From positions 212,836 to 276,835 of the forward strand of contig NZ_KE557277.1 in assembly GCF_000442255.1 (NCBI RefSeq): a DNA stretch of 64,000 bases, read 5' to 3'. The DNA comes from Salipiger mucosus DSM 16094 (GTDB lineage: Bacteria > Pseudomonadota > Alphaproteobacteria > Rhodobacterales > Rhodobacteraceae). The position numbers and the translations under genes were made by a program. Below the pieces are notes generated by a model. That model did no database searches. It worked only from the letters and a program-made list of their open reading frames with translations, and was not told where the DNA came from. This document shows, piece by piece, positions 39,580-60,327 of this stretch (position 1 is its first letter; every line of letters starts with the position of its first letter).

Positions 39580-40560
39580 TCAGGCGGCGCGGCGGCGGGC
39601 GAGGCCGCGCAGGGCGTCGATGGTTGCGGGGCCGGCGAGGCTCAGCAGCGCCGTGGCAGTGAGGGTGGTCAGGGTCTTGGCAGGCTCGGCGGCGAGCGCG
39701 AGCGGCGCCGTGGCGAGAGCGGCCCGCATCCGGCTGCGCGCCTCGGAGGCATTGCCGGAACTGACGGCGCGGCGCGCGAGGTAGCGCTGCTGGAAGGCGC
39801 GGGCGGCCCGCGCGTGGCGGGCGAAGAAGGCGGGGGCCAGCGGGGTGAGCTTGGTCACCATGGCTTCCCAGGAGGCTTCCTGCCGCGCGGTGCCGGCCGA
39901 GAGGCCCCCGGGCACGATCCGGTAGCGGGTCAGCAGGCCGGGGATGCCGGCGATGTCCCAGTCGGTGGTCAGCGCCAGGCGCAGCCAGCACTCGACATCC
40001 TCGGACTGGCGGAAGCGTTCGTCGAACCACCAGTCGCGGCGCGTCTCGCCCTCGGGCCGGAAGGCGATGGCATCGAGCGCCGCGCGGCGGAAGACCGGGG
40101 CCGAGCCGTTGCCCACCGGGTTGCGGCGAAAGACATGCGCGGGGGTGACGCCCTGCAGGCGCGGGCGCTGCGCCAGGCCCGTGGGGCGGCCCTCGGCGTC
40201 GATCAGTTCGGAGCCGGAGTAACTGAGGCCGATCTCGGGGTTGGCCTCGAGATGCGCGACATGGGCGGCGAGCTTGGTCGGACGCCAGAGGTCGTCTGCG
40301 TCGCAGAAGCCGATGAAAGCGCCGCGCGCAGCGGCGATGCCGCTGTTGCGCGCTCCGGCAAGCCCACGGTTGGGCTGTTGCACCACACGGATGCGCGCAT
40401 CGCCAAAGCCGCGCGCCACCGCGACGGTGCGGTCGGTGGAGCCGTCGTCGACCACGACGATCTCGAAATCCGGGTGGGTCTGCGCCAGCAGGCTGCGCAG
40501 GGTCTCGCCGAGCGTGTCGGCGGCGTTGAAGGCGGGGACGACGATGGAAGCCTGGGGCAT
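39580..40560 (-). CDS. Glycosyltransferase, family 2
   Basis: 326 residues, GT-A fold: ASIVVPAFNAADTLGETL, VVVDDGSTD, LAGARNSGIAAARG, and the DXD region FCDADDLW. The later SEDVECWLRL acidic motif is the likely catalytic base region. Start taken at the ATG at 40560; a GTG at 40566 is also possible. Likely builds the exopolysaccharide repeat. Related to, but clearly diverged from, the next gene. Confidence 0.93.
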   Translation of the reverse strand: MPQASIVVPAFNAADTLGETLRSLLAQTHPDFEIVVVDDGSTDRTVAVARGFGDARIRVVQQPNRGLAGARNSGIAAARGAFIGFCDADDLWRPTKLAAHVAHLEANPEIGLSYSGSELIDAEGRPTGLAQRPRLQGVTPAHVFRRNPVGNGSAPVFRRAALDAIAFRPEGETRRDWWFDERFRQSEDVECWLRLALTTDWDIAGIPGLLTRYRIVPGGLSAGTARQEASWEAMVTKLTPLAPAFFARHARAARAFQQRYLARRAVSSGNASEARSRMRAALATAPLALAAEPAKTLTTLTATALLSLAGPATIDALRGLARRRAA

Positions 40561-40572
40561 GGTCACGGTCTT

Positions 40573-41487
40573 TCAGTGAGAGAAGAGGGCGCGGCGCAGC
40601 GACCGCGGAAGGAACGGGGCGACGAGCGCGCCGCCAAGGGTCAGAACGCCGCGCCGGTGGTCGGCGAAGAAGCCGACGGGGCTCGTCAGCGCGCCCGAGA
40701 GGGCCAGGCGAAGCGGTTGGTGCCGCGGGGCGCCGGTACGCAGGGCGCGGCGCGCGAGGTAGCGCAGGTAGACGGCCTCGTGCTTCCGGTCGGGCCGGAC
40801 GCCGTAGCGCGCGGCGGTCTCGATCGCGGTGGCGCGGCCGCGGCGCATGGCGCCGAGGTCGGCCGAGAGCCCGTTGGCGACGGTCCGATAATGCACCAGG
40901 GTCTGGTTCACCCCGAGGACGGCGTGGCCGTCACCCACGAGGCGGATCAGCCACTCCAGGTCCTCGTTGTGCACCATGCGGCTGTCGAATCCGCCGCTGG
41001 CCTCGAAGGTGTCGCGTCGCACGACGAGGTTCGACATCGTGCAGACCGGGTTCTCCGCCAGCAGCATGCCGATGGTCAGCGGCCCCTCGGGCACCGTTGA
41101 AAGGCTTCGCGAGCCGCGCTCGTCGAAGAAGGCGATCCGTGCGAAGGCCGCGTCGACGCACTCTTCCGCGAAGAGCCGGTCCATGACCGCCAGCTTTTCC
41201 GGAGCCCAGAGGTCGTCTGCGTCGCAGAAGGCGATGAGCTTTCCGCTGGCCCGGCGCAGCGCCACGTTGCGCGCCGCGCTGGGGCCGCGCGAGGGGTTGT
41301 TCAGCAGCGTGATGCGCGCGTCCCCGAGGGCGGCGGTGCGGGCGATCTCCCGGCTGGCGTCGGTCGAGCCGTCATCGACGATCAGCATCTCCCAGTCGGT
41401 GAAGGTCTGGGCGCGCAGGCTGTCCAGTGTGGCGGGCAGGGTGGCTTCGGCGTTGAAGCAGGGGATGACGATGGTGAAGGTGGTCAT
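40573..41487 (-). CDS. Glycosyltransferase, family 2
   Basis: 304 residues with the same GT-A hallmarks: FTIVIPCFNAEATLPATL, IVDDGSTD, GPSAARNVALRRASG, FCDADDLWAPEKL, and NEDLEWLIRLV as the catalytic-base region. Its ATG overlaps no gene, but the flippase stop lies one base upstream, so the block is a tight operon. Sugar specificity cannot be inferred. Confidence 0.93.
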   Translation of the reverse strand: MTTFTIVIPCFNAEATLPATLDSLRAQTFTDWEMLIVDDGSTDASREIARTAALGDARITLLNNPSRGPSAARNVALRRASGKLIAFCDADDLWAPEKLAVMDRLFAEECVDAAFARIAFFDERGSRSLSTVPEGPLTIGMLLAENPVCTMSNLVVRRDTFEASGGFDSRMVHNEDLEWLIRLVGDGHAVLGVNQTLVHYRTVANGLSADLGAMRRGRATAIETAARYGVRPDRKHEAVYLRYLARRALRTGAPRHQPLRLALSGALTSPVGFFADHRRGVLTLGGALVAPFLPRSLRRALFSH

Positions 41488-41488
41488 G

Positions 41489-42727
41489 TCACGCGGTCCT
41501 TGCGAAGCGGGTGGAGAAGGCGGGGGCAAGCACCGGCAGCGCGGCGCCTGTCTGGATTACGAGGGCGAGGGCGAGGGTGCCCCAGGCGATCGCGGTCAGC
41601 CCGAGCGGGGCGAGCAGAGCGGTGTTGGCGACCAGGGCGATGGTGAGTGCCAGCGTCACGGAGAACTCGACCTGCGGCCGGCCGGCGGCACGCAGCCATT
41701 GCGCTGCGGCGGACCAGATCACCCCGGGGATCGCGGCGAGGCAGAGGATCGAGACCACATCGGCGATCCCGTCCCAGCCCGCGCCGAAGAGCACCGGCAC
41801 GTACCAGGGCGCGGCAAGGGCCTGCAGGACGACCACCGGGGCGATCACGCCAACGCTCATGAGCGTCGCCTGCCGCAGGGCCTGGGCGCGGTCGGTGGCG
41901 GTGCACAGATGCGGAAATAGCGCGACCGAGAAGGCCTGCGAGAAGGAGTTGGCAAGCCCCAGCCCGGCGTTAAAGGCCATGAAATAGAGGCCAAGCACCT
42001 CGGGGCCCATGAGCGCGCCAACGACCAGCTTGTCCGCCTGCAGGCGCGCGGCCTTCACGACCTCGACGCCCAGAACGGCCCAGCCGTAGCGCAGGAAGGG
42101 GGCGAGCGGCGCGGGGCGCGTGCTGCGGTCGGCCTGCCAAGGGTGCAGGCGGCGCATGGCCACCAGCCAGATCGGTGCGGCCAGAAGGCGCGGCAGCACA
42201 AGCGCCAGCGGTCCGGGCATCAGCAGGGCGAGCGCGGCGGAGAGCGCATTGGCGCCCACGACCTGGCCCGCGGCGATGGCAGCTGTCTGGCGCATCTTGC
42301 CCGCGCGCATGGCGAGAGCGCATTGCACCAACCCGGCCGGCATGAAGAGGTATTCGCCGGCGAGCACCGCGATCAGCGCGAAGATCACCCAGTCGCCCGA
42401 AAGCGCCCAAAGTGCCGCGCCAAGCGCGACCTGCGCTGCGAAGAGGCCGATGCACCACGCCCAGAAGATGCGGCTCGCGGTGCGGCAGGTGGCGGCGAGG
42501 TCCTCGTCCCGGGCGGCGATGATGCGTTGTCCTGCGCCGTTCTCGGTCAGGGCCTTGAGAATGTCCGCCGCAGCGATGGCCGCCGCCGCCAGCCCGATGG
42601 TCGTTGCGTCCATCGAGCGTGCGACCGCCACGACGACCAGCAGACGCGACGCTTTCGCCGCGACCTCGGAGAGGCTGTAGGCGATCAGGGAACGCCCGAA
42701 AGGGCCGATGCGATCTGCGAGGGTCAT
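41489..42727 (-). CDS. Polysaccharide flippase, Wzx/RfbX (MATE/MOP) type
   Basis: 412 residues, mostly hydrophobic, with 12-14 predicted helices. N-terminal IAYSLSEVAAKASRLLVVVAVARSM and the mid-protein LRYGWAVLGVEVVKAARLQADKLVVG are typical of oligosaccharide flippases of the MOP superfamily, which move lipid-linked repeat units across the inner membrane. First gene of the four-gene block; the dyad at 42838-42861 lies about 110 bases before its start. Confidence 0.88.
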   Translation of the reverse strand: MTLADRIGPFGRSLIAYSLSEVAAKASRLLVVVAVARSMDATTIGLAAAAIAAADILKALTENGAGQRIIAARDEDLAATCRTASRIFWAWCIGLFAAQVALGAALWALSGDWVIFALIAVLAGEYLFMPAGLVQCALAMRAGKMRQTAAIAAGQVVGANALSAALALLMPGPLALVLPRLLAAPIWLVAMRRLHPWQADRSTRPAPLAPFLRYGWAVLGVEVVKAARLQADKLVVGALMGPEVLGLYFMAFNAGLGLANSFSQAFSVALFPHLCTATDRAQALRQATLMSVGVIAPVVVLQALAAPWYVPVLFGAGWDGIADVVSILCLAAIPGVIWSAAAQWLRAAGRPQVEFSVTLALTIALVANTALLAPLGLTAIAWGTLALALVIQTGAALPVLAPAFSTRFARTA

Positions 42728-42837: not shown

Positions 42838-42861
42838 CGACCTATCCGAAGGGACAGGTGG
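42838..42861. promoter_or_regulatory. Exopolysaccharide-locus dyad, site 1 (imperfect)
   Basis: CGACCTATCCG-AA-GGGACAGGTGG, matching the dyad at 47347-47372 perfectly in the left arm and with two core mismatches in the right arm. It lies between the divergent flippase operon (start 42727) and the export lipoprotein gene (start 42950), about 90-110 bases from both, where an operator could serve two promoters. Confidence 0.7.
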
Positions 42862-42949
42862 GCTATCCCGGCACAGCGATGGACGCGGGCGAGTCCGCAG
42901 GGCTATGATTCCCGTCAAAGTGAAGAACCAACGGCGAGGAGCAGCGACC

Positions 42950-44185
42950 GTGGTGCCGCCCCTACACAGACAGACCGCGCGCGCCGTCGCGCTTGTCGCC
43001 CTTGCGGCCTGTTCGGCGCCGCGCGAGGCCGCCAACATCGAGCCCGTGGCCGAGGGGGGCGCCTACCAGGCGCAGTACCGTGACATCGAGGTGCGCCGCG
43101 AGGCCATGCCGATCCTCGAGGCGCCGCGGATCAACGCCGAATCCTGCCGGCCCCCCATCGGCGGCACGCGCGAGGCGGCCGCCGCAGACGGCGGCAAGGC
43201 CGGCTGGCGCGCCGATGCGGCGCTGCGCGGAGACGTGCTCTCGCGTGGTGACCTCGTGGACCTGATGCTGCCCGGCGACGAGACCTTCTCGGGCGACTAC
43301 GTCATCTCGCGGGACGGCACGCTGAAGGTGCCCTTTCTCGCGCCGATCCCGGCGCAGGGCAGGACCACCGCTCAGGTCGGCGCGGATCTCCGGCGGGCGC
43401 TTGTCGCGGGGGACTACTACGACACCGCGCCCGAGACCGCGCTGCTGGTGCAGGACTACGCGCCGGCCCGCGTCACGGTCTCCGGCGCCGTCTTCGAGCC
43501 GCAGCCGGTCACCATAGGCGGCGTGCCGGGCGACCAGGTGGATACGCTGCGGCAGGCCGCGCTCGGCGCCTCGACCGAGGGACGCAACCTCTCGGTCGCG
43601 CTGCGCAACGCGGGCGGCGTGCGCCCCGACGCGGATCTCTCGGCCGTCCGCCTGACGCGCGGCGGCACGACCTATACGCTCGACCTGCGCGGCGCGGTCG
43701 ACGGCACGCCCTTCGACGACGTCATGCTGATCACCGGCGACCAGGTCGAAGTGCCCTCGCGCCTGTGCTTCCAGGACGATCTGATGAAGCCCAGCCCGGT
43801 CAGCCCTGCCGGGATCTCGCTCTACATGTCGAACCTGACGCAGCCGGCGACCGGCAACGCGCCCTCTGCCATCGGCGAGACCGTGCGGCAGGTGCCCTAC
43901 GGCACCCGCTACATGCAGGCCGTCGTGGACCTCAACTGCGTGGGCGGCGCGCGGGCCAGCAGCGCGGATCGCTCGGCGGCGCTCTTTTCGCGCAACCCGA
44001 TGACCGATGTCTCGGTCGTGGTGGAGCGCAAGGTCGAGGTGATGCGCACCCGCGCGGACCGCGACGATTACGACCCCTACCTGCTGCCCGGCGATGCGCT
44101 GGCCTGCTACGACAGCGGCGTGACCAACGTGACCGAGGTGGCGCGCGTGCTGGGCGTGGTGGGGGCCCTGACGCTGCTGCGCTGA
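42950..44185 (+). CDS. Polysaccharide export outer-membrane lipoprotein (Wza-like)
   Basis: 411 residues from a GTG start with GAGGAG eight bases before it. The short signal sequence ends in a lipobox, LVALAAC, with Cys21. The export domain (LVDLMLPGDETFSGDYVIS, then DGTLKVPFLAPIPAQGRT) and SLBB-like parts (RVTVSGAVFEPQPV) follow, and a second beta-grasp block later. It should form the outer-membrane channel. A longer start (ATG 42905) is possible but has no good site. Converges with the kinase gene, leaving four bases between the stops. Confidence 0.88.
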   Translation: MVPPLHRQTARAVALVALAACSAPREAANIEPVAEGGAYQAQYRDIEVRREAMPILEAPRINAESCRPPIGGTREAAAADGGKAGWRADAALRGDVLSRGDLVDLMLPGDETFSGDYVISRDGTLKVPFLAPIPAQGRTTAQVGADLRRALVAGDYYDTAPETALLVQDYAPARVTVSGAVFEPQPVTIGGVPGDQVDTLRQAALGASTEGRNLSVALRNAGGVRPDADLSAVRLTRGGTTYTLDLRGAVDGTPFDDVMLITGDQVEVPSRLCFQDDLMKPSPVSPAGISLYMSNLTQPATGNAPSAIGETVRQVPYGTRYMQAVVDLNCVGGARASSADRSAALFSRNPMTDVSVVVERKVEVMRTRADRDDYDPYLLPGDALACYDSGVTNVTEVARVLGVVGALTLLR

Positions 44186-44189
44186 ACGC

Positions 44190-46754
44190 TCAGCGCGCCT
44201 GCTCCATCCGGTCTTCCAGCGCCGTCCGGCTGCGTGCCCAGAGGTGGCGCAGCGCTTCGAGATCGCCCCTGTCGACGGGCTGGCCGCGTTTGGCGGAGGT
44301 CTCGATCCGGCCAAGCGCGCCGCGCAGGGCGACAAGTCCGAAGGTGGCGCAGTTGCCGGCGCACTTGTGCGCCGCGGCGGGCAGATCGGGGTCGTCGGGC
44401 GATAGAGCCGCAAGATCGGCGATCGCCGCGTCCATCTCGGCCAGGAACCGCGTTCGCAGGTCGGCGCGCGCACTGTCCGGCAGGCCCTTCCAGAGCGTCG
44501 CGATCTGCGCCTCGTCGAGAAGCGGCTCGGGCTCCTGAACCGGCTCCTGCAAAACCTCCGCGCCTGCCTCGTCCAGGGCGACGGCCAGGGTGTCGAGAAG
44601 ATGCCGCCTGTTCACGGGTTTGCTGATGCAATGCGCCATGCCCGCCTCGCGGAAGCGGGCCAGTTCCTCGGGCAGGGCATGGGCCGTCACCGCGATGATC
44701 GGCGCCTTGGCCGAGGCGCCCGCGCCCTCGCGGATGTGGCGGGCGGCGGCCGGGCCGTCCATCACCGGCATCGAGATATCCATGAGGATCGCGTCGAAGG
44801 CCCGGGCCTCGGCCCACTCCACCCCGGCGCGGCCGTCCAGCGCCTCGGTCACCTTGTGGCCCTCGGCCTCGAGCATCTCGCGGGCGACGAAGCGGTTGAT
44901 CTCGTTGTCTTCCACGAGCAGCAGGTCGAGCGGGCGCACCGCGGGCCGCTCCTCCTTGCGCGACGCGGCCGGCGTTTCGGCCTGCGCCTCTGCCTCGGAG
45001 GAGACCAGCGGCAGGCGGATCCAGAACAGGCTGCCCTCTCCCGGCTCGCTCTCGACGCCGATCTCGCCGCCCATGGCCTCGGTCAGGCGGCGGGCGATGC
45101 CAAGCCCCAGCCCGGTGCCGCCGGCGCGGCGGGCATAGGAGGAATCGAGCGTCTCGAAGTCCTCGAAGATGCGGTCGAGGTCGGCCTCGGCGATGCCGAT
45201 GCCGGTGTCGATCACCCGGAACTCGAGGGTCTTCCCATTGCCCAGCCGCTCGGCCTCGACATCGACGCTGCCGCCGCGGGTGAACTTCACCGCATTGCCC
45301 ACGAGGTTCAGCAGCACTTGCCGCAGGCGGCGCGAGTCGCCCAGGGCGGCATCGGCAGGCTGGCCCACCCATTGCCATTCCAGCGTGGTCCCTGCGGCGG
45401 CGGCCAGTGGCGAGGCGGTCTCGACCACACCGTCGAGCAGGCGCGTCACCGAGAAGGGACGCTGGTCCGGGTGCACCTTGCCGGCTTCGAACTTCGAGAG
45501 GTCGAGCACGTCGTTGACCAGCCCGAGCAACTGGCTGCCCGAGGTCTGCATCCGGTCCAGCAGGTCGCTCTGCCGCTCGGTCAGGGTGTGGTCGCGCATC
45601 AGCTGCATTGTGCCCAGCATCCCGTTCAGCGGCGTCCGCATCTCGTGGCTCATCACGGCCAGGAACTCGGCCTTGGCACGCTCGCCCGCCAGCGCGCGGT
45701 CCCGGGCCTCGGTCAGGCCGTCCTCTGCGGCCCGCCTGCGCGAGATGTCGCGGATGTAGGCCACGAAGAGCTTGCCGCTCTCGGCGCGGACAACCGAGAT
45801 TTCGGCGGGAAAGCGGTGCCCGTCCCGGTTGAGCGCCTGTTCTTCGAACCGGCGTTCCTGCTGCTGCGGAGCGCCCGGCGTGTCCACGAAAGCCAGCTCG
45901 CCGCCGCGCAGCCGGTTCAGCACCTCGGGCGGAAAGATGAGCTCGCCCGCGTTGCGCCCCAGCGCCTCCTCGCGGTCATATCCGAAGATGCGCCGCGCCG
46001 CGGGGTTGAACTCGCGGATCGTGCCCTCGGCGTCGGTCACGAGGATCGCGTCGAGCGCGGTGTCCACGATGGCCTGCATCCGGCGCCCGGTGCGCTGAAT
46101 CTCCTCGGCGCGGGCCTGGTCCTGCCGGCTCATGCGGTAAAGCGTGAACGAGATCAGCACCAGCCCGACAAAGACGAGCGCCAGCAGCACGGCCAGCGCG
46201 ATCAGCGTGTGCACGAGATCCTGGCGGCGGTTGTCCGAGGTCTCGGCAAAGGCCGTCAGGCCTGCGAGGGAAAAGGCCCGCACGTCTTCGTTGATGGCAC
46301 TCGCGGCCTCGGAGAGTTCGGGCAGGGCGTCACGCAGGGCGGGGTCGGGCCCGTCGATCAGCGGGACGGCATCGTCGAGAAAGCGCTGCACCACTGCACG
46401 GGGTTCGGCGTATTCATCGCCCGAGCGCAGGGTCCGGAAGGCGGTGCCGCTGTCGAAAATGCCGACGCGGCTGTAGAAGATGTCGAACCGGCGCCGCACC
46501 TCGTCCAGCGTGGCGCGGTCCTGCTGCGCCTGTTCGAGAGCCAGGCGCAGGCGCAGGAATTCCACGTCCGCCTGGGCCAGGCTCCATTGCAGGTTGTCGG
46601 AATTGGCGGTCGACAGTTCGTCGATCTCGCGCAGGACCGAGGCGGCCATGCCGGCCACGAGCCCGACGCAGAAAACGACTGCGGTGACGGCGATCCTGTT
46701 CGGCGACAGGATCCGCCACCGCCGCCGCATTGTCTGCGGCGCGGGCTCACTCAT
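44190..46754 (-). CDS. Hybrid sensor histidine kinase
   Basis: 854 residues. Order: TM1 (about 22-42), periplasmic helical sensor (43-185), TM2 (about 186-208), PAS domain (DALDAILVTDAEGTIREFN), HisKA with His370 (SHEMRTPLNG), HATPase (NLVGNAVKF, DTGIGI, GTGLGLGIA), receiver with Asp659 (MDISMPVMDG), and a C-terminal Hpt domain with His796 (AAHKCAGNC). A complete His-Asp-His relay, ready to feed a separate response regulator; the NarL-type regulator at 49.2 kb is the obvious candidate. Coupled by six bases to the secreted partner gene upstream. Confidence 0.95.
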   Translation of the reverse strand: MSEPAPQTMRRRWRILSPNRIAVTAVVFCVGLVAGMAASVLREIDELSTANSDNLQWSLAQADVEFLRLRLALEQAQQDRATLDEVRRRFDIFYSRVGIFDSGTAFRTLRSGDEYAEPRAVVQRFLDDAVPLIDGPDPALRDALPELSEAASAINEDVRAFSLAGLTAFAETSDNRRQDLVHTLIALAVLLALVFVGLVLISFTLYRMSRQDQARAEEIQRTGRRMQAIVDTALDAILVTDAEGTIREFNPAARRIFGYDREEALGRNAGELIFPPEVLNRLRGGELAFVDTPGAPQQQERRFEEQALNRDGHRFPAEISVVRAESGKLFVAYIRDISRRRAAEDGLTEARDRALAGERAKAEFLAVMSHEMRTPLNGMLGTMQLMRDHTLTERQSDLLDRMQTSGSQLLGLVNDVLDLSKFEAGKVHPDQRPFSVTRLLDGVVETASPLAAAAGTTLEWQWVGQPADAALGDSRRLRQVLLNLVGNAVKFTRGGSVDVEAERLGNGKTLEFRVIDTGIGIAEADLDRIFEDFETLDSSYARRAGGTGLGLGIARRLTEAMGGEIGVESEPGEGSLFWIRLPLVSSEAEAQAETPAASRKEERPAVRPLDLLLVEDNEINRFVAREMLEAEGHKVTEALDGRAGVEWAEARAFDAILMDISMPVMDGPAAARHIREGAGASAKAPIIAVTAHALPEELARFREAGMAHCISKPVNRRHLLDTLAVALDEAGAEVLQEPVQEPEPLLDEAQIATLWKGLPDSARADLRTRFLAEMDAAIADLAALSPDDPDLPAAAHKCAGNCATFGLVALRGALGRIETSAKRGQPVDRGDLEALRHLWARSRTALEDRMEQAR

Positions 46755-46760
46755 GCCGCA

Positions 46761-47273
46761 TCATTCCTCGACGGTGATGCGGTCCAGTTGCCAGATGCTG
46801 CGCGAATAGATCACCTCGGTCTGGTAGTCGGCGTTGCTGTCATAAGGGTAGACCACCCAGAGGGGGCCCTTGTCACGCACAGACATTGCCTCGCCGTTAT
46901 TCAGGTAGGCGACGATGGCGCCATCCTCGACCCAATCCTCGCGCGGGATCTGCACGGCGTAGTCGTTGATGGCGGTGGCGCTCAGGCTGTCGGCCTCGGC
47001 GCCCACGACCTCCATCAGGCGCGACAGCGGCACGCCGGTGAAGCTCTGGACGCCGTCGGTCCAGATCGTGGTGGTCTCGAAGGTCACCGGGTCCAGCTCC
47101 TCGAGCATGGCGCGGTCGAAGGCGGCTGTCCCGTCCACGTTGGTGTTGGCGATGGCACCGTTCACGGTGAGCAGGATCGTCCCTTCGGGGGCGGCAAGCT
47201 CGGCCGCGGCCAGCGGCAGTGGCATGGCCAGGGCAAGCAGGGCGGCGGCGCGGCGGATCGGGCTGAGGGTCAT
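46761..47273 (-). CDS. Secreted molybdopterin-fold protein without the Mo-ligand Cys
   Basis: 170 residues: signal peptide (RRAAALLALAMPLPLAAA), then a mature part resembling the oxidoreductase molybdopterin-binding fold: LLTVNGAIANTN, then FTGVPLSRLMEVVG and GPLWVVYPYDSN. The protein has no cysteine at all, so it cannot bind molybdenum the usual way; it may bind another small ligand. Its position directly before the hybrid kinase suggests it is a periplasmic ligand-binding partner of that sensor. The perfect dyad at 47347-47372 lies about 75 bases before the ATG. Confidence 0.8.
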   Translation of the reverse strand: MTLSPIRRAAALLALAMPLPLAAAELAAPEGTILLTVNGAIANTNVDGTAAFDRAMLEELDPVTFETTTIWTDGVQSFTGVPLSRLMEVVGAEADSLSATAINDYAVQIPREDWVEDGAIVAYLNNGEAMSVRDKGPLWVVYPYDSNADYQTEVIYSRSIWQLDRITVEE

Positions 47274-47346
47274 GGCGGAACTCCGGGAATGTCGAGGATG
47301 GTTATGTCACGACAGGGGTTACCTGTCCGTTGGGCATTGTGGGAAA

Positions 47347-47372
47347 CCGACCTATCCGAACGGATAGGTCGG
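47347..47372. promoter_or_regulatory. Exopolysaccharide-locus dyad, site 2 (perfect)
   Basis: A perfect inverted repeat with 12-base arms, CCGACCTATCCG and CGGATAGGTCGG, around a two-base AA centre. It lies just upstream of the secreted-sensor/kinase operon and seven bases after the stop of the sugar-transferase gene. It lacks a T-run, and its core recurs at 42.84, 48.96 and 49.78 kb, which favours an operator over a terminator. Confidence 0.85.
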
Positions 47373-47379
47373 CCGGGGG

Positions 47380-48807
47380 TCAATAGGCGCCGCGCCCGCC
47401 GATCACGGCGCGGAAGGTGGTCGCGATCAGGATCATGTCCAGCAGGAGCGAGCGGGCGCGGACATAGGCAAGGTCCATGTCGATCATCTTGTCGAAGCCG
47501 ATCTCGGCGCGGCCCGAGACCTGCCAGATGCCGGTGAGGCCGGGTTTCACGGCCAGCCGGCCGAGGGCGCGGGCCGGGTAGGCCGCGACCTCTTCGGGCA
47601 GCGCCGGGCGGGGGCCGACGATGGACATCTCGCCACGCAGGACGTTGAGGATCTGCGGCGCCTCGTCGATGGAAAAGCGGCGCAGGATGCGGCCAAGGCG
47701 CGTGACGCGCGGGTCGTTGCGCGACTTGAAGCAGACGCCCTGCCGGTCGGATTGCGCGAGCAGCGCGGCGCGCCGCGCCTCGGCATCGACGTGCATCGAG
47801 CGGAACTTGAACATGGTGAACGGGCGTCCGTCACGGCCGATGCGCACCTGCTTGAACAGCACCGGTCCGCGGCTGTCGAGCCGGATCGCGATCACAAGCA
47901 GCAGGACCACAGGGGCGAGCAGCAGCAGCGCGCTGCCCGAGAGCGTGACGTCGATGGCGCGCCGGGCAATGTCCTGCGGCTCGGTTTTCGCAAGGGTCTC
48001 GCGGGCGGCGCGGGCCAGGAAGGTCGCGTTGCCCAGCAGGTAGCGGCCCGCCATCCGGCGCGGCTCCATCGCCAGCCGCCAGACCCACTCGCAGCGCATG
48101 CGGCGCACCGGCGCCGGCGCGCGACGCACGCGGCCCGCGAGGAAGTCGAAGAGCGCGCCGACGCCCATGGTGATCCGCGCGTCGAGGCGGTGGGCATTGC
48201 GCGCGAGCCAGAGGTCCTGCAGCGGCACGCCAGCCGCGACCAGCAGGATGTCGGGCTGCGCCGCGTTGATCGCGGCGACGGTGGCGTCGGTATCGCCCAT
48301 TCCGTCGTAGCCGTCGCGGTGGCCGGCGACGCGCAACCCGGGCGTTGCCAGGACCAGCTTGTCGGCGGCGGCGCGGGCCACGCCGGGACGGCCGCCCAGC
48401 AGGAAGACGCTCAGGCCCTTCTGCGCGGCGCGGCGCAGCAGGGCAGGGGTGAAGTCGGTGCCGTTGAGGTTCTCGCGGAAGCGCAGCCCCTGCATCCGGG
48501 CCGCCAGCTCCATGCCGATGCCGTCGGGCAGGATCATGTCGGCGGTGGCGAGCGCGTCGAAATAGGCGCTGTCGCGTGCCAGGACGTTGCCGCAGTGGGC
48601 GTTGACGAAGGCGATGCGGCTGCGGCGGCCGGGTGTCATCAGCCGGTCGATCACGGCTTCGGTGGTTGCCGAGACGATGTCGAGGCCGAAGAGGCGGATG
48701 GTCTCGATCCCGCTTCCAGGGCGGTCGGTGAGGCCGGCGGGCGCGGGGATGACGGGAAGGGCGTCGGCGAAGGCTGCGTCGTGGCGGGGGTGTCGTGCGT
48801 AGGTCAT
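47380..48807 (-). CDS. Fusion of GT26 (WecG/TagA) glycosyltransferase and undecaprenyl-phosphate sugar transferase
   Basis: 475 residues with two enzymes in one chain. Residues 35-230 are WecG/TagA/CpsF-type: FVNAHCGNVLARDS, ILPDGIGMELAARMQG, NGTDFTPALL and VGVGALFDFLAG. Residues 285-475 are a polyisoprenyl-phosphate hexose-1-phosphate transferase: a membrane hairpin (GSALLLLAPVVLLLVIAI), FKFRSMHVDA, RRFSIDEAPQILNVLRGEMS, GPRPALPEEV and KPGLTGIWQVSGR. The fusion would start the repeat unit on undecaprenyl phosphate and add the second sugar. Confidence 0.93.
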   Translation of the reverse strand: MTYARHPRHDAAFADALPVIPAPAGLTDRPGSGIETIRLFGLDIVSATTEAVIDRLMTPGRRSRIAFVNAHCGNVLARDSAYFDALATADMILPDGIGMELAARMQGLRFRENLNGTDFTPALLRRAAQKGLSVFLLGGRPGVARAAADKLVLATPGLRVAGHRDGYDGMGDTDATVAAINAAQPDILLVAAGVPLQDLWLARNAHRLDARITMGVGALFDFLAGRVRRAPAPVRRMRCEWVWRLAMEPRRMAGRYLLGNATFLARAARETLAKTEPQDIARRAIDVTLSGSALLLLAPVVLLLVIAIRLDSRGPVLFKQVRIGRDGRPFTMFKFRSMHVDAEARRAALLAQSDRQGVCFKSRNDPRVTRLGRILRRFSIDEAPQILNVLRGEMSIVGPRPALPEEVAAYPARALGRLAVKPGLTGIWQVSGRAEIGFDKMIDMDLAYVRARSLLLDMILIATTFRAVIGGRGAY

Positions 48808-48954
48808 GTCAGGTCCTCGGGGGCAAGCGTTTGTCCCCTTCCGGATGGGCCATGCCGCGCCTTTCGCTCAACGCCGCCACCGGACAGCCCTACCGCTCCG
48901 AGGGATCGTCACCTGCCTGCATGGCGCGTTCCGCGCCCGACCGGCGGGGCAAGG

Positions 48955-48972
48955 CCTATCCGGGCGGATAGA
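48955..48972. promoter_or_regulatory. Exopolysaccharide-locus dyad, site 3
   Basis: CCTATCCG-GG-CGGATAGA: seven-base arms CTATCCG/CGGATAG are perfect. It sits in the divergent region between the sugar-transferase fusion (start 48807) and the response regulator (start 49159), about 150 and 190 bases from each. Confidence 0.8.
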
Positions 48973-49098
48973 GCTTCTATGCCGTTACGCCCTTCTCGTG
49001 ACGCATTTGACGTGCATCGTGATCCCGCGGCCGCCGAATTTTGTGCGGTCATTCGTTTGCCGTCATGACCGGGATCGATCATCATGTCCTTTCAGGGA

Positions 49099-49106
49099 CC
49101 TATCCG
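49099..49106. promoter_or_regulatory. Possible half site before the response regulator gene
   Basis: CCTATCCG without a matching right arm (ACTCGCG follows), 52 bases before the regulator's start codon. By itself an eight-base match could be chance; its location beside the other sites raises its interest. Confidence 0.35.
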
Positions 49107-49158
49107 ACTCGCGCCACGGACCTCGTCCGCCATCCAGACCTCCGGCAGAGGAGACGCC

Positions 49159-49779
49159 ATGCGCATTCTCATCGCGGACGATCACGACCTGCTGCGCGAC
49201 ACGCTCGTGATGTTCATGGAAACCGAGGGCAGCCTCGACCCGGTGGCGGTCGGCACGCTGGATGCCGCCGAGGAGGCCGTGCGCACCGACCCCGAGGGCT
49301 TCGACCTGGTGCTGCTGGATTTCTCCATGCCGGGGATGAACGGCCTCTCGGGCCTCGATACGGTTCGCGCCCTTCCGGGCCGGCACCGCGTGGCCATCAT
49401 CTCGGGCACCGCCAACCGCGAGGTCGCCGAGCAGGCGCTCGAGGCCGGGGCGGCAGGCTTCCTGCCCAAGACGCTTTCGGCCAAGTCGCTGGTCAACGCG
49501 ATCCGCTTCATGGCCATGGGCGAGCAATATGCGCCGCTCGACTTCATGCGCGCCTCGGCCGAGCCTGCCGAGGTGCATCCGCTGGCCGGCAAGCTCTCGC
49601 AGCGCGAACTCGAGGTGTTGCAGGGGCTGACGCAGGGCAAGTCCAACAAGGAGATCGCGCGCGATCTCGACATCCGCGAGCCCACGGTGAAGCTTCACGT
49701 CAAGACGCTCTATCGCAAGATCGGCGCCTCGAACCGCACGCAGGCCGCGATGATCGCCAAGGAGCAGGGACTCTTCTGA
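49159..49779 (+). CDS. Response regulator, NarL/LuxR type
   Basis: 206 residues: receiver domain with ADDHD acidic pocket, phosphoacceptor Asp54 (LLDFSMPG) and the late Lys (LPKTL), then a LuxR-type HTH (LSQRELEVLQGLTQGKSNKEIARDLDI..., KLHVKTLYRKIGASNRTQA). GAGGAG precedes the ATG. It is the only stand-alone regulator in the polysaccharide locus and is flanked by dyads on both sides, so it is the best candidate both to receive phosphate from the hybrid kinase and to bind the CTATCCG sites, including its own region. Confidence 0.94.
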   Translation: MRILIADDHDLLRDTLVMFMETEGSLDPVAVGTLDAAEEAVRTDPEGFDLVLLDFSMPGMNGLSGLDTVRALPGRHRVAIISGTANREVAEQALEAGAAGFLPKTLSAKSLVNAIRFMAMGEQYAPLDFMRASAEPAEVHPLAGKLSQRELEVLQGLTQGKSNKEIARDLDIREPTVKLHVKTLYRKIGASNRTQAAMIAKEQGLF

Positions 49780-49799
49780 GCCTATCCGCACGGATAGGC
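49780..49799. promoter_or_regulatory. Exopolysaccharide-locus dyad, site 4
   Basis: GCCTATCCG-CA-CGGATAGGC: nine-base perfect arms around a two-base centre, beginning at the last base of the regulator gene and about 90 bases before the start of the chain-length gene. Same core as sites 1-3. It could also fold in RNA, but no T-run follows. Confidence 0.83.
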
Positions 49800-49888: not shown

Positions 49889-51376
49889 ATGCCCCGCACC
49901 CGCAAATCCATCGTTCCCGCCCTGATCCGCCGCCCCCTGCGCGAGATGACCTTCGCCCGCATGCTGCGTGGCGGCCGCCTGGCCGACGCCGGGCGCCTGC
50001 CACGCTACATCGGCCTCTTCGCCATCGGTGCGGTCTGCATCTGGACGCCGATCACCACCTATCTGTCGACCGCGCCGCTGCGCTACACCTCGAGCCTCTC
50101 GCTGATCCTGCCGGGATCGGGTGCCTCGGCCTCGGTCAATCTCGACCGGATCGGGCAGGCCTCGTCCTTTGCCAATTCGCCCTATGCGCATAGCTCGGTC
50201 AGCCCGACCGAGACCTACAAGCGCCTGCTGGCGGCTGAGCGGATCGTCGATGCCGCCGCCGGGTCGCTCGACATGGTGTCCCGCGACTTCGGCCAGCCGC
50301 GCGTGGAGCTGGTGGACCAGACCGGCCTCATCCACGTCTCCATCACCGGCAATTCGCCCGAGGATGCCAAGGCGCGGGGAGACGCACTGCTGCAGGCCTT
50401 CTTCTCGGAGATCGAGGCGCTGCGGGAAGACGAGGTCGAGATGCGCGAGAGCGGCGCCGGCGTGGCGATCGAGGAGTATCGCCGCTCGGTGCTGGCGACC
50501 CGCGACGAGATTTCCCGACTGCAGCGCGAGACCGGCCTGATCTCGGCCGCGCAGTACGAGGCGCTGGTCACCGAGGCCGACACGCTGGCGAAGCGCGAGC
50601 GCGACCTGGCCGCGACGCTGGCGGAGCGCACCCGCGCGGTGTCCGCGCTGGAGGCCTCGCTGGGCACCACGCCGCGCCTCGCGGCGGCGGCGCTCAAGCT
50701 GCACGCCGACACCGAGCTTTCGGCGCTCAACACGCAGATGGCCGAGCAGGCCGCGCTGCTCTCGCAGGCGCGCAGCAGCTATGGCGCCAACCACCCCGAG
50801 GTGCGTGCGGCGCAGTCCGGCCATGCCGCCGCGCGCGACGAGGCACGGCGCCGTTCCGTACAGCTGACCGGCCTCTCCGGTACGGAACTCGACGCGCTCG
50901 ACATCTCGCACGTGGGCAGCCGCGCGGCGCTGCTGAGCGATCTCGTGACCCTCGAGGCCGAGCGCGCCGGGCTCGAGGCCGAGCACGCCGCGATGACGGC
51001 CCGGCTCGAGGCCGCCCGCGCCCGGCAGATGGACCTGATCGACCCGGCCGCCCGGCTCGAGGACCTGCAGCGCGACTTCCGCGTCGCCGAGGCCGTCTTC
51101 GCCTCGGCCATCGCGCGGACGCAGACCAACAAGGCCGACCTTTTCGCCTCCTATCCGCTGGTGCAGGTGCTGGAGGACCCGGCGCTGCCGACCGATCCCA
51201 GCTCGCCGCGCCGCAAGCTCGCCATCGCGGCCGGCATCGCGGCGACGATCTTCGTCCTCATGGGCCTCGCGCTGGGCTGGATGCGGCGGTCCCTGATCGA
51301 CCGGCTGCTCGAGCCCGCTGCCGAGGGCGATCATGTCCCGCAGGACGACACCCCCGGCCTGGTCGCCGCGGAATGA
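49889..51376 (+). CDS. Chain-length determinant / polysaccharide co-polymerase (Wzz/GumC-like)
   Basis: 495 residues. A first membrane helix lies at about 40-60 (PRYIGLFAIGAVCIWTPITTYL) and a second at about 447-468 (LAIAAGIAATIFVLMGLALGW); between them a periplasmic domain with a long coiled coil (about 180-410) and a PxxP-like segment (ALPTDPSSPRRK) before TM2. No Walker motifs or C-terminal Tyr cluster: there is no fused tyrosine kinase. It should set polymer length and bridge to the outer-membrane channel. AAGGAG precedes the ATG; its stop overlaps the next gene's start (ATGA). Confidence 0.88.
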   Translation: MPRTRKSIVPALIRRPLREMTFARMLRGGRLADAGRLPRYIGLFAIGAVCIWTPITTYLSTAPLRYTSSLSLILPGSGASASVNLDRIGQASSFANSPYAHSSVSPTETYKRLLAAERIVDAAAGSLDMVSRDFGQPRVELVDQTGLIHVSITGNSPEDAKARGDALLQAFFSEIEALREDEVEMRESGAGVAIEEYRRSVLATRDEISRLQRETGLISAAQYEALVTEADTLAKRERDLAATLAERTRAVSALEASLGTTPRLAAAALKLHADTELSALNTQMAEQAALLSQARSSYGANHPEVRAAQSGHAAARDEARRRSVQLTGLSGTELDALDISHVGSRAALLSDLVTLEAERAGLEAEHAAMTARLEAARARQMDLIDPAARLEDLQRDFRVAEAVFASAIARTQTNKADLFASYPLVQVLEDPALPTDPSSPRRKLAIAAGIAATIFVLMGLALGWMRRSLIDRLLEPAAEGDHVPQDDTPGLVAAE

Positions 51377-52692
51377 GCGCCGAGATCGCTCCCCGCAACC
51401 TGGCCGAGCGCATGGTCTGGAATGCGCTGCGCTGGACCTGGCCCTTCTACTTCGTCGGCGCGCTCTACGTCGTGGGGCCGGTGCTGGCCTGGCTGCTGGC
51501 CGGCCTCGCGGCGCTGGTGCTCTACCTCGGCCCGGCGATCCGGGCCGACCTGCGCGCCCGTGGCCCGGTGCCGCCGGTCGTGCTGGCCTGGTTCGCGGGC
51601 ATGGCGGTGATGCTGGTCGCGCTGTGGGTCGGGCACCTCGACTGGGGGCTCGGCGCCAAGCAGACGATCAAGAGCTCCATCGGCTGGGCCAAGGGCTGGG
51701 CGCTGCTGGCGCTCTTTCCCTTTGCCGGCGCGGTGCTGCCGATCCGGCGCGAGATCCTCGTGCGCGGGCAGTGCATCGTCGGGCTCTGGACGCTCTGCCT
51801 GCTGCCGGTGCTCTTCGCCGCGCCCTACGCGGGCCTGCCCGAGCGCATCTTCACCTCGCCGCTCAAGGCCATCGGCGGCCCGGGCCCCGAGTATTTCAGC
51901 GTCTTCTTCTTCACCTGGGACCCGGCAAGCTGGACGCCGCGCTGGCAGTTCTACGCCCCCTGGTCGCCTTTCGCCGCGCTCCTGGGCGTGTTGCAGGTCT
52001 GCTTTGCGCTCGAGGAGCGGAACGTGAAATGGCGCAGCATCGGGGTGGCCGCGGGCGTCGCCATGATCCTGCTGTCCAAGTCGCGAATGGGGCTCGTGGG
52101 GCTGGTGGCCTGCACCATCGGGCCGCGCATGATGCCGCTGCTGCTGCGCGGATGGGCCTGGCAGGCGCTGGCAGGGGCGACCGCCTCGCTCGCCGTGGTG
52201 GGCACGGCGCTGGTGCAGGCGATCAAGGACGGCATCTCGGCCTTCAAGGGCGCGCGGGCCGACAGCACCCGCGTGCGCGAGACGCTTCAGCGCATCGCCG
52301 GCGAGCGGTGGGAGAACGAGGCCTTCTGGTTCGGCCACGGCACCGTTCACCCTGGGGCGCATATCGTGGAGTACATGCCCATCGGCAGCCATCACACCTG
52401 GTGGGGACTGCTCTTCGTGAAGGGGCTTGTCGGGTTGCTGGCCCTGCTGGTGCCGCTTGCCTGGCAGACCATGCTGGCACTCGTTGACGCGGCGCGCGGG
52501 CCGCGAGGGAGGCTGCCACTGTCGATCATGATGACCATCGTCCTGCTGTCCTTCGGCGAGAACCTCGAGATCGAGGCCTATCTTCTGTGGCCCGGTCTGG
52601 TCGTGCTGGGCATCCACGCCGCCGAACTGCTGCGCGCGGAGAACCCTGCCGTGGCCCAAAGCTGCGTGTCTTGTTCGCCTGACGCTGCGTGA
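51373..52692 (+). CDS. Polysaccharide polymerase, Wzy/O-antigen-ligase-like
   Basis: 439 residues with 10-11 predicted helices. The pattern of a large periplasmic loop (about 270-340) containing FWFGHGTVHPGAHIVEYMPIG and SHHTWWGLLFVKGLVGLL matches the O-antigen ligase/polymerase superfamily; SKSRMGLVGL is another typical block. It should join flipped repeat units at the periplasmic face. Its start overlaps the chain-length gene, a sensible pairing since the two act together. Confidence 0.85.
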   Translation: MSAEIAPRNLAERMVWNALRWTWPFYFVGALYVVGPVLAWLLAGLAALVLYLGPAIRADLRARGPVPPVVLAWFAGMAVMLVALWVGHLDWGLGAKQTIKSSIGWAKGWALLALFPFAGAVLPIRREILVRGQCIVGLWTLCLLPVLFAAPYAGLPERIFTSPLKAIGGPGPEYFSVFFFTWDPASWTPRWQFYAPWSPFAALLGVLQVCFALEERNVKWRSIGVAAGVAMILLSKSRMGLVGLVACTIGPRMMPLLLRGWAWQALAGATASLAVVGTALVQAIKDGISAFKGARADSTRVRETLQRIAGERWENEAFWFGHGTVHPGAHIVEYMPIGSHHTWWGLLFVKGLVGLLALLVPLAWQTMLALVDAARGPRGRLPLSIMMTIVLLSFGENLEIEAYLLWPGLVVLGIHAAELLRAENPAVAQSCVSCSPDAA

Positions 52693-52895: not shown

Positions 52896-54093
52896 ACCGC
52901 TGCAGAAATTCCGGTTGGGTCGGGAGCGCCTCGGTATTCCAAAGGCGCCCGCGTCGACTATCTCGGCCAGGATTGCAGTGGCCGGCTCGAGGTTCGACGG
53001 GAACAACCGGGCTTCATCCGTCTCGAAGAAAGCGAGTCCGCCGGAACGGGGTGCGGCCAGCCCGGCCAGATCCTCCTGGCAGAGGTCGAGGGCGACCTGT
53101 GGGACTTCGGGTGGCGCAGCAGCCCGGGCGGTCGGGATTGCGCCAAAGGCAGGGTCCGGCCCACGGTCAACGCGGCGGTCGCGCCGCGGACCCTGGTCCC
53201 GCAAACGGAAATCGTGGCGACCGAGACGCTGGCCACGGATGACCGGATCGGGCTCGTTCTCGGGCAGGACCAGCTTCGGGATGGTCGTGTCGGTGGCTAC
53301 CTGCGGGTTCGGCATGTCCTTGCCGGCAGTCCCGCCGCCGCGGCAGGCATCCGTGCAGGTGACCGCATCGTCAGTGTGTGGGGAGGCGCTGTCGACGAAT
53401 ACGCGTTCATCACCGGGATCCACCAGGACTTCGACCGCAGGTCTCTGATCGACCTTGAGGTGCTTCGAGGTGACGGGACCAAGAAGCAACTTCTGGACCT
53501 CGCGGAGGTGCCGGGCGTGCCGGAGAAGGGCATCTCGCAGGCGGTTGCCGACGGGCGGCTCAATCCCGAACCGGACGACCTGCTGGAAGCCTGTCTCGAA
53601 CTGTCGGATGCATACTACCCCGACATGGAGGCGCGCGCCCGGGCGCGGCTTCTGGAGGAGGGCGACAGCTACGCCGCGAGCTATATCGGGGACATGCGCT
53701 GCGATCATGTCGCCCTGAATCACGATGCCGAACGCATCGAAGCATGGAATACGCGCTTTGGTCCAAGGCCCGCACAGCTCGAGACGGGTCGTATCGATCC
53801 GACCGTCCTCGCCTATTTCCGGGCGAACGCGGTCACCGGAACGGAGTATGCCCGGCTGCGCTGCGACGTCACCGTTGCACTTGGCGCGCAGGATCCGGCC
53901 CTGATCGAGTGTCGTGACGTGGACCCGTCGCGCCAGGACAATTCCGTGTTCGACCAGTTCGCCGCCGCGCGGCCTCCTACACCAAGTCGTGGGACACTAC
54001 CCGGAACTGTCCTGCGATAGCGATCACCGCCGTCGCATGGAGGCCAACATGATCGCATGCGTGAACGGCGATCCTCCCGTGACCCGGCGCTGA
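52896..54093 (+). pseudogene. Degenerate PDZ-domain gene
   Basis: The frame from 53214 (GTG) to 54020 encodes a PDZ-like domain (RVRHVLAGSPAAAAGIRAGDRIVSVWGG) and a C-terminal region with DDLLEACLELSDAYYPDME. Equally protein-like residues precede the GTG (YLGQDCSGRLEVRREQPGF, then LLAEVEGDLWDFGW) back to 52896, but a stop lies there and no ATG/GTG/TTG is available. After about 53970 a different frame looks more native (MEANMIACVNGDPP) to 54093. A 5' truncation and a 3' frameshift are likely. Family unassigned; possibly an envelope stress or caspase-linked protein. Confidence 0.5.
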
Positions 54094-59376: not shown

Positions 59377-60291
59377 TCAGCCGGGGTTGGCGAAGGCGCT
59401 CGGCAGGGTATCCACGGCGTTGTGGAACTCCTCGGCGAACGCCTCGACCAGCTCCGACTTCCGGCTGTGCGTCGGCCAGGATATGTGCAGGTCCGACTTG
59501 ATCTCGGGCTCGAAGCGCCGCACCTCGACGCGGCCGAGCGCGATCTCGGCGACGAGGGCATCTGTGACCGTCACGCCAAAGCCGTTCGCCACGAACTCGC
59601 AGACGTTCTGTCCCGTCGTCGCGTCGAGCACGATGTTGGGAAAATAGCCCTCCGTCTCGAAGGCGGCATTGATCCGCCGCCGCGTCAGGCTGGTCACGCC
59701 GAAGCCGATGAATGGCTCCCCTTCGAGATCCTTCGGCCGGACAACCTTCTTGGCCGCGAGGCGATGGCCCATCGGCAGCAGGCAGATCATCGGCGGGTTC
59801 TTCACCGGTTCGGTGCGGATCGTTTCGTGCTCCACCCGGGTGATGAGAAACCCGATGTCCAGCCGGCGCGAGACCAGCCAGTCGGCCAGAAACTGCGAGC
59901 TGCGGGTCTCGACCGAAACGAAGACGTCCGGGTATCTCTCGCGAAAGCCGCGCAGCACGCGCGCCATGAAGGGACCGGCGAGCCCCGGCATGACACCGAC
60001 CAGGAGCTGTCCCTTTTCCTCGCGGCGGATGCGGTCCACCGCGCGGGCGACCTGATCGACGCTGCCGAAGATGCGGTCGGCCTCCTCGTAGAGCCGCATG
60101 CCGCGCTCGGTCGGCACCAGCCGCCCGCTCGAGCGCTCGAAGAGCTGCATGCCGGCGTCCTCCTCGAGATGCGCGATCAGCTTGCTGGCGGCGGGCTGGG
60201 AGATCCTCAGCATGAGCGCGGCGCGGCTCACGCTGCCGGTTTCCACCACGGCCATGAGGGCTTCGATCTGGCGCAGGCTCGGCTGGCGCAT
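59377..60291 (-). CDS. LysR-type transcriptional regulator
   Basis: 304 residues. N-terminal winged HTH: RQIEALMAVVETGSVSRAAL, then SQPAASKLIAHLEEDAGMQLFER; the C-terminal effector domain begins LVGVMPGLAGPFM and shows the usual two-lobed layout. Divergent to the dehydrogenase operon, 96 bases apart, the classical arrangement for a LysR regulator controlling its neighbour. Effector probably the substrate of the operon. Start at 60291 with GAGG eight bases upstream. Confidence 0.93.
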   Translation of the reverse strand: MRQPSLRQIEALMAVVETGSVSRAALMLRISQPAASKLIAHLEEDAGMQLFERSSGRLVPTERGMRLYEEADRIFGSVDQVARAVDRIRREEKGQLLVGVMPGLAGPFMARVLRGFRERYPDVFVSVETRSSQFLADWLVSRRLDIGFLITRVEHETIRTEPVKNPPMICLLPMGHRLAAKKVVRPKDLEGEPFIGFGVTSLTRRRINAAFETEGYFPNIVLDATTGQNVCEFVANGFGVTVTDALVAEIALGRVEVRRFEPEIKSDLHISWPTHSRKSELVEAFAEEFHNAVDTLPSAFANPG

Positions 60292-60327
60292 GAGTATAAC
60301 CTCGTGGAATAGACAGGCCAATCTTTC

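Follow-up and report, generated by a model that had tools for sequence, protein, structure and literature searches.

A CTATCC-N4-GGATAG dyad as a probable dedicated operator for a NarL-type regulator encoded with a PruR-type protein and hybrid kinase in a Salipiger mucosus exopolysaccharide locus

The gaps between the genes of an exopolysaccharide (EPS) locus in Salipiger mucosus DSM 16094 carry a conserved inverted repeat with the core CTATCC-N4-GGATAG, and the results strongly support that it is a dedicated operator. Judged from sequence comparison, the dyads are probably the strong anchor sites of an operator array for the NarL/LuxR-type response regulator (RR) encoded among them. The locus lies in a window of 64,000 nucleotides, the whole stretch of DNA that was analysed, from an assembly of 5.69 Mb in 30 contigs (97.5% complete). 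An earlier sequence-only reading of the window had described a CTATCCG-NN-CGGATAG dyad in the gaps of the locus; the core given above, the half-site phasing of about 21 bp and the PruR-type identity of the secreted protein go beyond that reading.

Table 1 Positions of the dyads, half-sites and genes in the window
Feature	Position	Strand	Basis or remark
Two GT2 glycosyltransferases	40573-41529, 39580-40566		Pfam; after flippase gene
Polysaccharide flippase	41489..42727	-	Pfam; start codon 42727
Imperfect dyad CTATCCGAAGGGACAG	42842..42857	.	Flippase/export-lipoprotein gap
Exact CTATCC half-site	42863..42868	+	Offset 22 from dyad, export gene side
Polysaccharide export lipoprotein	42950..44185	+	Pfam (Poly_export, SLBB)
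DTB-like hybrid histidine kinase	44190..46754	-	Pfam PAS, HisKA, HATPase, receiver, Hpt; periplasmic WX7E at residues 57-65
PruR-type secreted protein, putatively pterin-binding, 170 aa	46761..47273	-	Profile, fold and sequence match to PruR
Perfect dyad CTATCCGAACGGATAG	47352..47367	.	Before pruR-type/kinase operon; 12-bp arms 47347-47372
WecG/TagA glycosyltransferase fused to sugar transferase	47380..48807	-	Pfam
Half-site CTGTCC (1 mismatch)	48882..48887	-	Offset 85, transferase gene side
Half-site CGATCC (1 mismatch)	48903-48908		Offset 64, transferase gene side
Perfect dyad CTATCCGGGCGGATAG	48956..48971	.	Between WecG-sugar transferase and RR genes; 7-bp arms
Half-site CTATCC	49100..49105	+	Offset 145, RR gene side
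NarL/LuxR-type response regulator (RR), proposed binder	49159..49779	+	Pfam receiver and GerE
Perfect dyad CTATCCGCACGGATAG	49782..49797	.	Right after RR stop codon, before chain-length/polymerase operon; 9-bp arms 49780-49799
Chain-length determinant-like protein	49889..51376	+	Pfam GNVR and XrtA-system chain-length model, both below cut-off
Membrane protein taken as polymerase	51373..52692	+	Homologue in 39/80 RR loci (best 80 of 478)
Second regulator gene, LysR-like	59377-60321		Translation read by eye; far from dyads

A scan of the window with CTATCCGNNCGGATAG returned the three perfect dyads of Table 1 and the copy at 42842 with two mismatches, as the sequence-only reading had described; this imperfect copy differs at a single base from the better core CTATCC-N4-GGATAG. 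That reading had also seen no equally good copy elsewhere in the window, and the sole further site within two core mismatches lies at 44776, within the kinase gene. When up to three mismatches were allowed, the window held 8 copies against 2.63 expected, a number reached in 1 of 100 shuffles. The start codon lies 115 bases from the site for flippase, 93 for the export lipoprotein (with 42950 as the assumed start), 79 for the secreted protein, 149 for the WecG-sugar transferase, 188 for RR and 92 for the chain-length gene, a span of 79-188 that agrees with the 75-190 given before. Some details had to be adjusted: the long arms around the 47352 and 49782 copies were right, while the dyad at 48956 has 7-bp arms and not nine; the half site reported at 49099 is the exact CTATCC at 49100, and the earlier coordinates take in flanking bases; and RR does sit between two copies, although it is not the only stand-alone regulator, since the LysR-like gene is also in the window. 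The candidate polymerase had no Pfam or NCBIfam match. It is followed by a PDZ-domain protein (53214-54017) that showed no homologue at 1e-8 across the 80 RR loci (best 80 of 478).

The 5.69-Mb genome has three perfect copies of CTATCCG-NN-CGGATAG, and this locus contains all of them, so that a dispersed repeat was rejected; a genome scan, suggested in the sequence-only reading, thus found no scatter of the motif over unrelated intergenic regions. Seven copies have at most one core mismatch, four of them in this locus. When two mismatches of the 12-base core were allowed, 65 sites were found against 61 for the reversed-pattern control, which indicates that loose copies carry no signal and only near-perfect ones do; accordingly, nothing in this genome pointed to a wider regulon at that threshold. 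We then consider other genomes. A scan seeded with this genome and with 39 loci, picked among the motif-bearing ones of the 80, covered 38 genomes (this one plus 37 reached through motif-bearing loci) and gave 80 perfect cores against 3 for the reversed control; 63 of the 80 lay in RR loci, a share that this selection biases upward. In 394 genomes of the family that were not selected by motif, a perfect core was present in 86/190 with an RR match (threshold 1e-45) and in 9/204 without one (p 5e-23), while the reversed control gave 4/190 and 7/204. RR matches were rare beyond the family, with 8/289 genomes of the class, 2 of these 8 being family members.

The dyad is also kept beside orthologous regulators, in the same places. 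We compared 80 loci, the best 80 of 478 confirmed RR relatives, each taken with at most 10 kb of flanking sequence. The 14-base pattern with up to two mismatches occurred 159 times in 66 of the 80 loci and its reversed control 6 times in 5 loci, and the core with at most 1 of 12 mismatches occurred at 162 sites in 67 loci. Among 420 half-site-permuted palindromes, CTATCCG had 88 copies with up to one mismatch, and the other 419 averaged 0.31 with a maximum of 7. The spacing was fixed as well: CTATCC and GGATAG were found 86 times as perfect copies with a spacer of 4, and never with spacers of 0-3 or 5-12 in the same loci. The profile of the sites reads aCCTATCC-gWWc-GGATAGG. Its central two bases are mostly AA or TT, not the self-complementary AT or TA, despite the symmetric arms; they are complementary less often than expected in four of five site classes (0.10-0.15 vs 0.36-0.47 expected), the PGT/RR class being the other (0.33 vs 0.26).

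By place, with classes set by tblastn ends and gap limits therefore approximate, 46 of the 162 sites lie before the secreted-protein/kinase operon, 13 between that operon and RR, 18 in the sugar transferase/RR gap and 36 immediately downstream of RR. The flippase gap holds another 31, a further 3 stand ahead of the chain-length gene at points other than the post-RR position, and the remaining 15 have other positions. The 147 sites assigned to a class all fall outside blast-covered genes. A dyad stands upstream of the pruR-type gene in 59/65 loci, in the flippase gap in 31/39 loci with flippase, in the transferase/RR gap in 18/42 loci with transferase, and after RR ahead of the chain-length gene in 32/39 loci with that gene. 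The 37 loci with all EPS genes tested had four site classes in 10 cases, three in 21, two in 5 and one in 1. Where flippase, transferase and chain-length genes were not detected, the dyad still preceded the pruR-type gene in 21/25 loci. The claim of a dedicated operator in the sequence-only reading is thus strongly supported, the motif being neither dispersed nor lost beside orthologous regulators.

Two window dyads follow stop codons, at 49782 and, on the minus strand, at 47352, and the latter copy folds well (z -5.25), as would be expected if the dyads acted as RNA hairpins, terminators or processing signals; in the pruR classes the first outer arm also pairs slightly above composition (0.54 vs 0.41 and 0.62 vs 0.33). 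However, the other three window sites were matched in folding by 7, 36 and 40 of 200 shuffles, and sites occur in divergent gaps too. A run of at least 5 T in the next 10 nt, the mark of an intrinsic terminator, was found at 1/46 pruR-class and 1/36 post-RR sites, the two classes examined. Few sites have T-runs and the letters of the core arms hardly vary, which suits an operator in DNA better than a hairpin in RNA. A hairpin or terminator as the main role was rejected on the fold and T-run results, and an RNA role of any of these kinds is very improbable.

To the strong dyads, weaker half-sites are added at regular steps. In 142 oriented sequences pooled, 138 extra CTATCC half-sites were found, and 88 of them lay within 1 bp of 21, 42, 63, 84 or 105; an even spread gives a fraction of 0.16 and permuted hexamers give 0.23 when pooled, shifted forms of the motif included. 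The opposite half-site GGATAG was in phase in 9/59 cases. This phasing is weaker in the window than in the pooled loci: besides the half-sites of Table 1, there is one with one mismatch at offset 22 toward RR, and there are two-mismatch forms at offsets 21 (pruR), 42 (flippase) and 43 (chain length). Alignment of promoters on the dyad showed what follows these half-sites. The 59 pruR-type promoters have CTATCC at offset 21, a weak -35 (TG at 38-39) and an extended -10 (TG at 57-58, ATA at 61-63); the 31 flippase promoters have CTGTCC at 42-47, GAC at 60-62 and TA at 82-83; and the 34 chain-length promoters have CNATCC at 43-48 and TA at 82-83. In all three classes about 39-40 bp separate the nearest half-site from the -10 that follows it, and the strong dyad lies upstream of that half-site by one or two steps of about 21 bp. 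A direct search for -10-like hexamers recovered this distance in few sequences (6/64 pruR-class, 8 plus 3 of 29 flippase-class and 2/29 chain-length half-sites); for the transferase class it turned up no such element where one was expected. A second conserved block, CTGTCC...GCG..GGAC, was seen in the flippase gap at offsets 42-62; in some species, for example L081 and L084, it forms an inverted repeat whose spacer is longer. This block may be a separate operator, or a proximal half-site together with the -35.

Dyads at about -63 or -84, half-sites ending near -43 and a poor -35 are the typical geometry of an activator. Since the half-sites approach promoter-like elements in 21-bp steps, the array looks like one for activation, with transcription starts deduced from the aligned sequences. 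RR might instead bind the dyads and mainly repress, for example the EPS genes with pterin bound, much as attachment is limited by PruR-DcpA in Agrobacterium. The sign found in Agrobacterium, where pterin-PruR lowers biofilm formation (PMC13259868), would suit this, as the net sign through the kinase could be negative; set against the geometry of the three promoter classes, whose starts are deduced, we regard repression as decidedly unlikely.

We next consider which protein binds. RR has NarL (1a04) as its closest solved chain, with E 2.2e-25, and among the NCBIfam models listed it reached no equivalog cut-off (best 25). NarL binds inverted 7-bp half-sites of the form TACYYMT with a 2-bp gap. 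RR shares with the NarL/FixJ class the receiver and GerE domains and, in its proposed sites, the inverted 7-bp half-sites with a 2-bp gap; these sites differ in the half-site CTATCC and in the extra half-sites phased at about 21 bp. The recognition helix of RR, EPTVKLH[VM]KTL[YF]RK, hardly varies among the 64 loci that have both motif and kinase. A paralogue, RR2, mostly has EVTxKLHVKTL[SC]RK at this position, and has a kinase beside it in 38/41 loci and a PruR-type gene in 26/41. Among all 4096 half-sites, the best in the RR2 loci was CTATAC, in 13/41 (mean 0.83), with CTATCC in 10/41. Two of the 41 loci are RR1-like and were set aside, which left 39. As the exclusive best form, CTATCC and CTATAC stood at 49:2 in RR1 loci and at 2:4 in RR2 loci (p 5e-4); the RR2 loci also gave 7 ties, and 26/39 had neither dyad form within 2 mismatches.

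Linkage alone cannot name the binder. The dyad could be an operator bound by a regulator encoded elsewhere, RR having other sites: in so compact a locus the same linkage would be seen for whatever regulator controls it, and the RR2 loci are mostly without a clear dyad form. On the other hand, the dyad follows the PruR-kinase-RR genes where no EPS genes were detected, family genomes that lack an RR match seldom carry a perfect core, and RR2 regions prefer the shifted half-site. Taken together, a binder encoded elsewhere seems unlikely, and the evidence favours RR. The NarL-type regulator that the sequence-only reading had named is thus supported as the candidate binder by linkage, co-occurrence and a partial paralogue difference. 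Among the best 80 of 478, 13 loci had no site within one core mismatch. Eight of these lack both the kinase and the secreted protein beside RR, while five keep a kinase homologue with recognition helices mostly unchanged, which counts against the array model, as do the low share of transferase/RR gaps with a site, the missing -10-like element in the transferase class, the 26/39 RR2 loci with neither dyad form and the Paracoccus plasmid locus described below. Loss of sites through an altered helix was not supported, the helices of the site-less loci being mostly unchanged.

In its own genome, S. mucosus has a divergent RR2-kinase pair, with RR2 at G000 C1:24706-25299 (L129:4706-5299), 54-56% identical to RR, and a kinase homologue from about L129:5665; no PruR-type gene was seen beside the pair in the stretch searched. 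A CAATCC-GAAA-GGATTT dyad in the gap of this pair was tried as the RR2 operator and rejected, being absent from other RR2 loci.

The secreted protein matched the Pfam family Oxidored_molyb. A profile of 37 sequences searched against solved chains placed PruR first (7kos 6e-51, 7rkb 3e-49, then 7kp2 and 7kom). The AlphaFold2 model of the protein (pLDDT 91.5) gave PruR chains at Foldseek ranks 1-7, and the four Agrobacterium PruR chains had TM 0.93-0.95 and 49% identity. PruR has been described as a protein of about 170 aa with a secretion signal, in which the molybdenum-binding cysteine is replaced by tryptophan (PMC13259868). The length of the protein here and its N-terminal hydrophobic stretch, read by eye, fit this description; the cysteine is absent from 64/65 aligned segments across loci, and W71, invariant in A1 (36/65 pruR-type loci), is a candidate counterpart of the PruR tryptophan. 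By sequence and predicted fold the protein is PruR-type, and we infer that it binds pterin. A molybdenum enzyme, as suggested by Pfam and five plasmid annotations, is unlikely given the absent cysteine and the PruR profile and fold match. At 1e-5 the genome holds one PruR-type gene.

The kinase gene follows the pruR-type gene with a gap of 6 nt. Its best NCBIfam model is TorS, with a score of 398 under the cut-off of 676.5, and its WX7E motif is W57-E65; the motif was found in 64/69 kinases over the loci, some of these being chance matches near the membrane segment. By its sequence the kinase is DTB-like, forming a two-gene unit after pruR, with a periplasmic WX7E and likeness to TorS/BaeS.

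TorT-TorS and LuxP-LuxQ are systems in which a periplasmic binding protein feeds a hybrid kinase. The layout here is the same, with TorS as the best model, and the fold of the binding protein is unrelated. In Agrobacterium tumefaciens, PruR-DcpA shares the PruR-type protein and a link to surface polysaccharide; DcpA works via c-di-GMP, whereas here the partner is a kinase with, we infer, direct control of promoters. The closest known kind is PruR-DTB (DcpA-TorS-BaeS), described with an example from Ruegeria pomeroyi and broadly represented in Proteobacteria, which shares the two-gene unit of a secreted PruR-type protein and a TorS-like kinase, and in the kinase the periplasmic WX7E, PAS and receiver domains (PMC13259868). 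The present locus appears to add the regulator, operator and targets. In the available text of that review no cognate regulator, DNA site or target is named for the DTB kinase branch, whereas here a NarL-type RR, an operator and polysaccharide targets are attached; the main text of the review does not use the term 'response regulator' (0 occurrences; PMC13259868). Among the publications listed, within the text available, there was no recognised description of this operator.

In the mechanism that we propose, the secreted PruR-type protein would bind a small reduced pterin and contact the hybrid kinase at its periplasmic WX7E domain; phosphate would pass from HisKA through receiver and Hpt to RR. 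An RR dimer would then bind CTATCC-N4-GGATAG, and more copies of RR would occupy the weaker half-sites, which follow one another at about 21 bp on one face of the DNA, until the array reaches about -43, beside the poor -35 element. This would activate the operons of flippase, transferase and chain length as well as the pruR-kinase operon, and probably the export and RR genes too. We lean, with some reserve, towards the general form of this model for the family: a pterin-responsive PruR-type/DTB-kinase/NarL-type system that would control EPS promoters without c-di-GMP through a strong dyad and 21-bp-phased weak half-sites, module and operator being portable and a paralogous copy reading a shifted half-site. 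The locus offers a regulator, a DNA site and targets for the PruR-DTB kinase branch, with an exact sequence that can be tested, and the operator suggests how this pterin sensor family may control genes. Pterins are excreted by bacteria and are redox-active (PMC13259868); if the model is true, they would be a direct input to whether a polysaccharide coat is built.

On plasmids, sites with at most one mismatch were present in 3/5 RR loci examined. One locus on a Paracoccus plasmid, where the annotation shows the three module genes together, had no dyad within 2 mismatches. On a Pacificitalea plasmid (L121, 5200-9615) the PruR-like/kinase/RR module lies beside a CsgG/HfaB-family gene and not EPS genes, with a one-mismatch dyad before RR; the module may there serve other surface structures. 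Perfect cores outside RR loci, 17 of which are implied in the 38 genomes, were looked at in 15 cases (14 of those plus 1 other). Around these 15 sites no window protein was matched, except for a GT2 glycosyltransferase in L112. Pfam searches on the neighbours of 8 of the 15 placed five without an evident link and three before surface-polymer genes: L117:4023 precedes a polysaccharide pyruvyl transferase and a flippase, L112:4060 precedes the GT2 glycosyltransferase, and L105:4008 precedes a protein that contains bacterial Ig repeats and also matches BapA_N, marginally below the cut-off.
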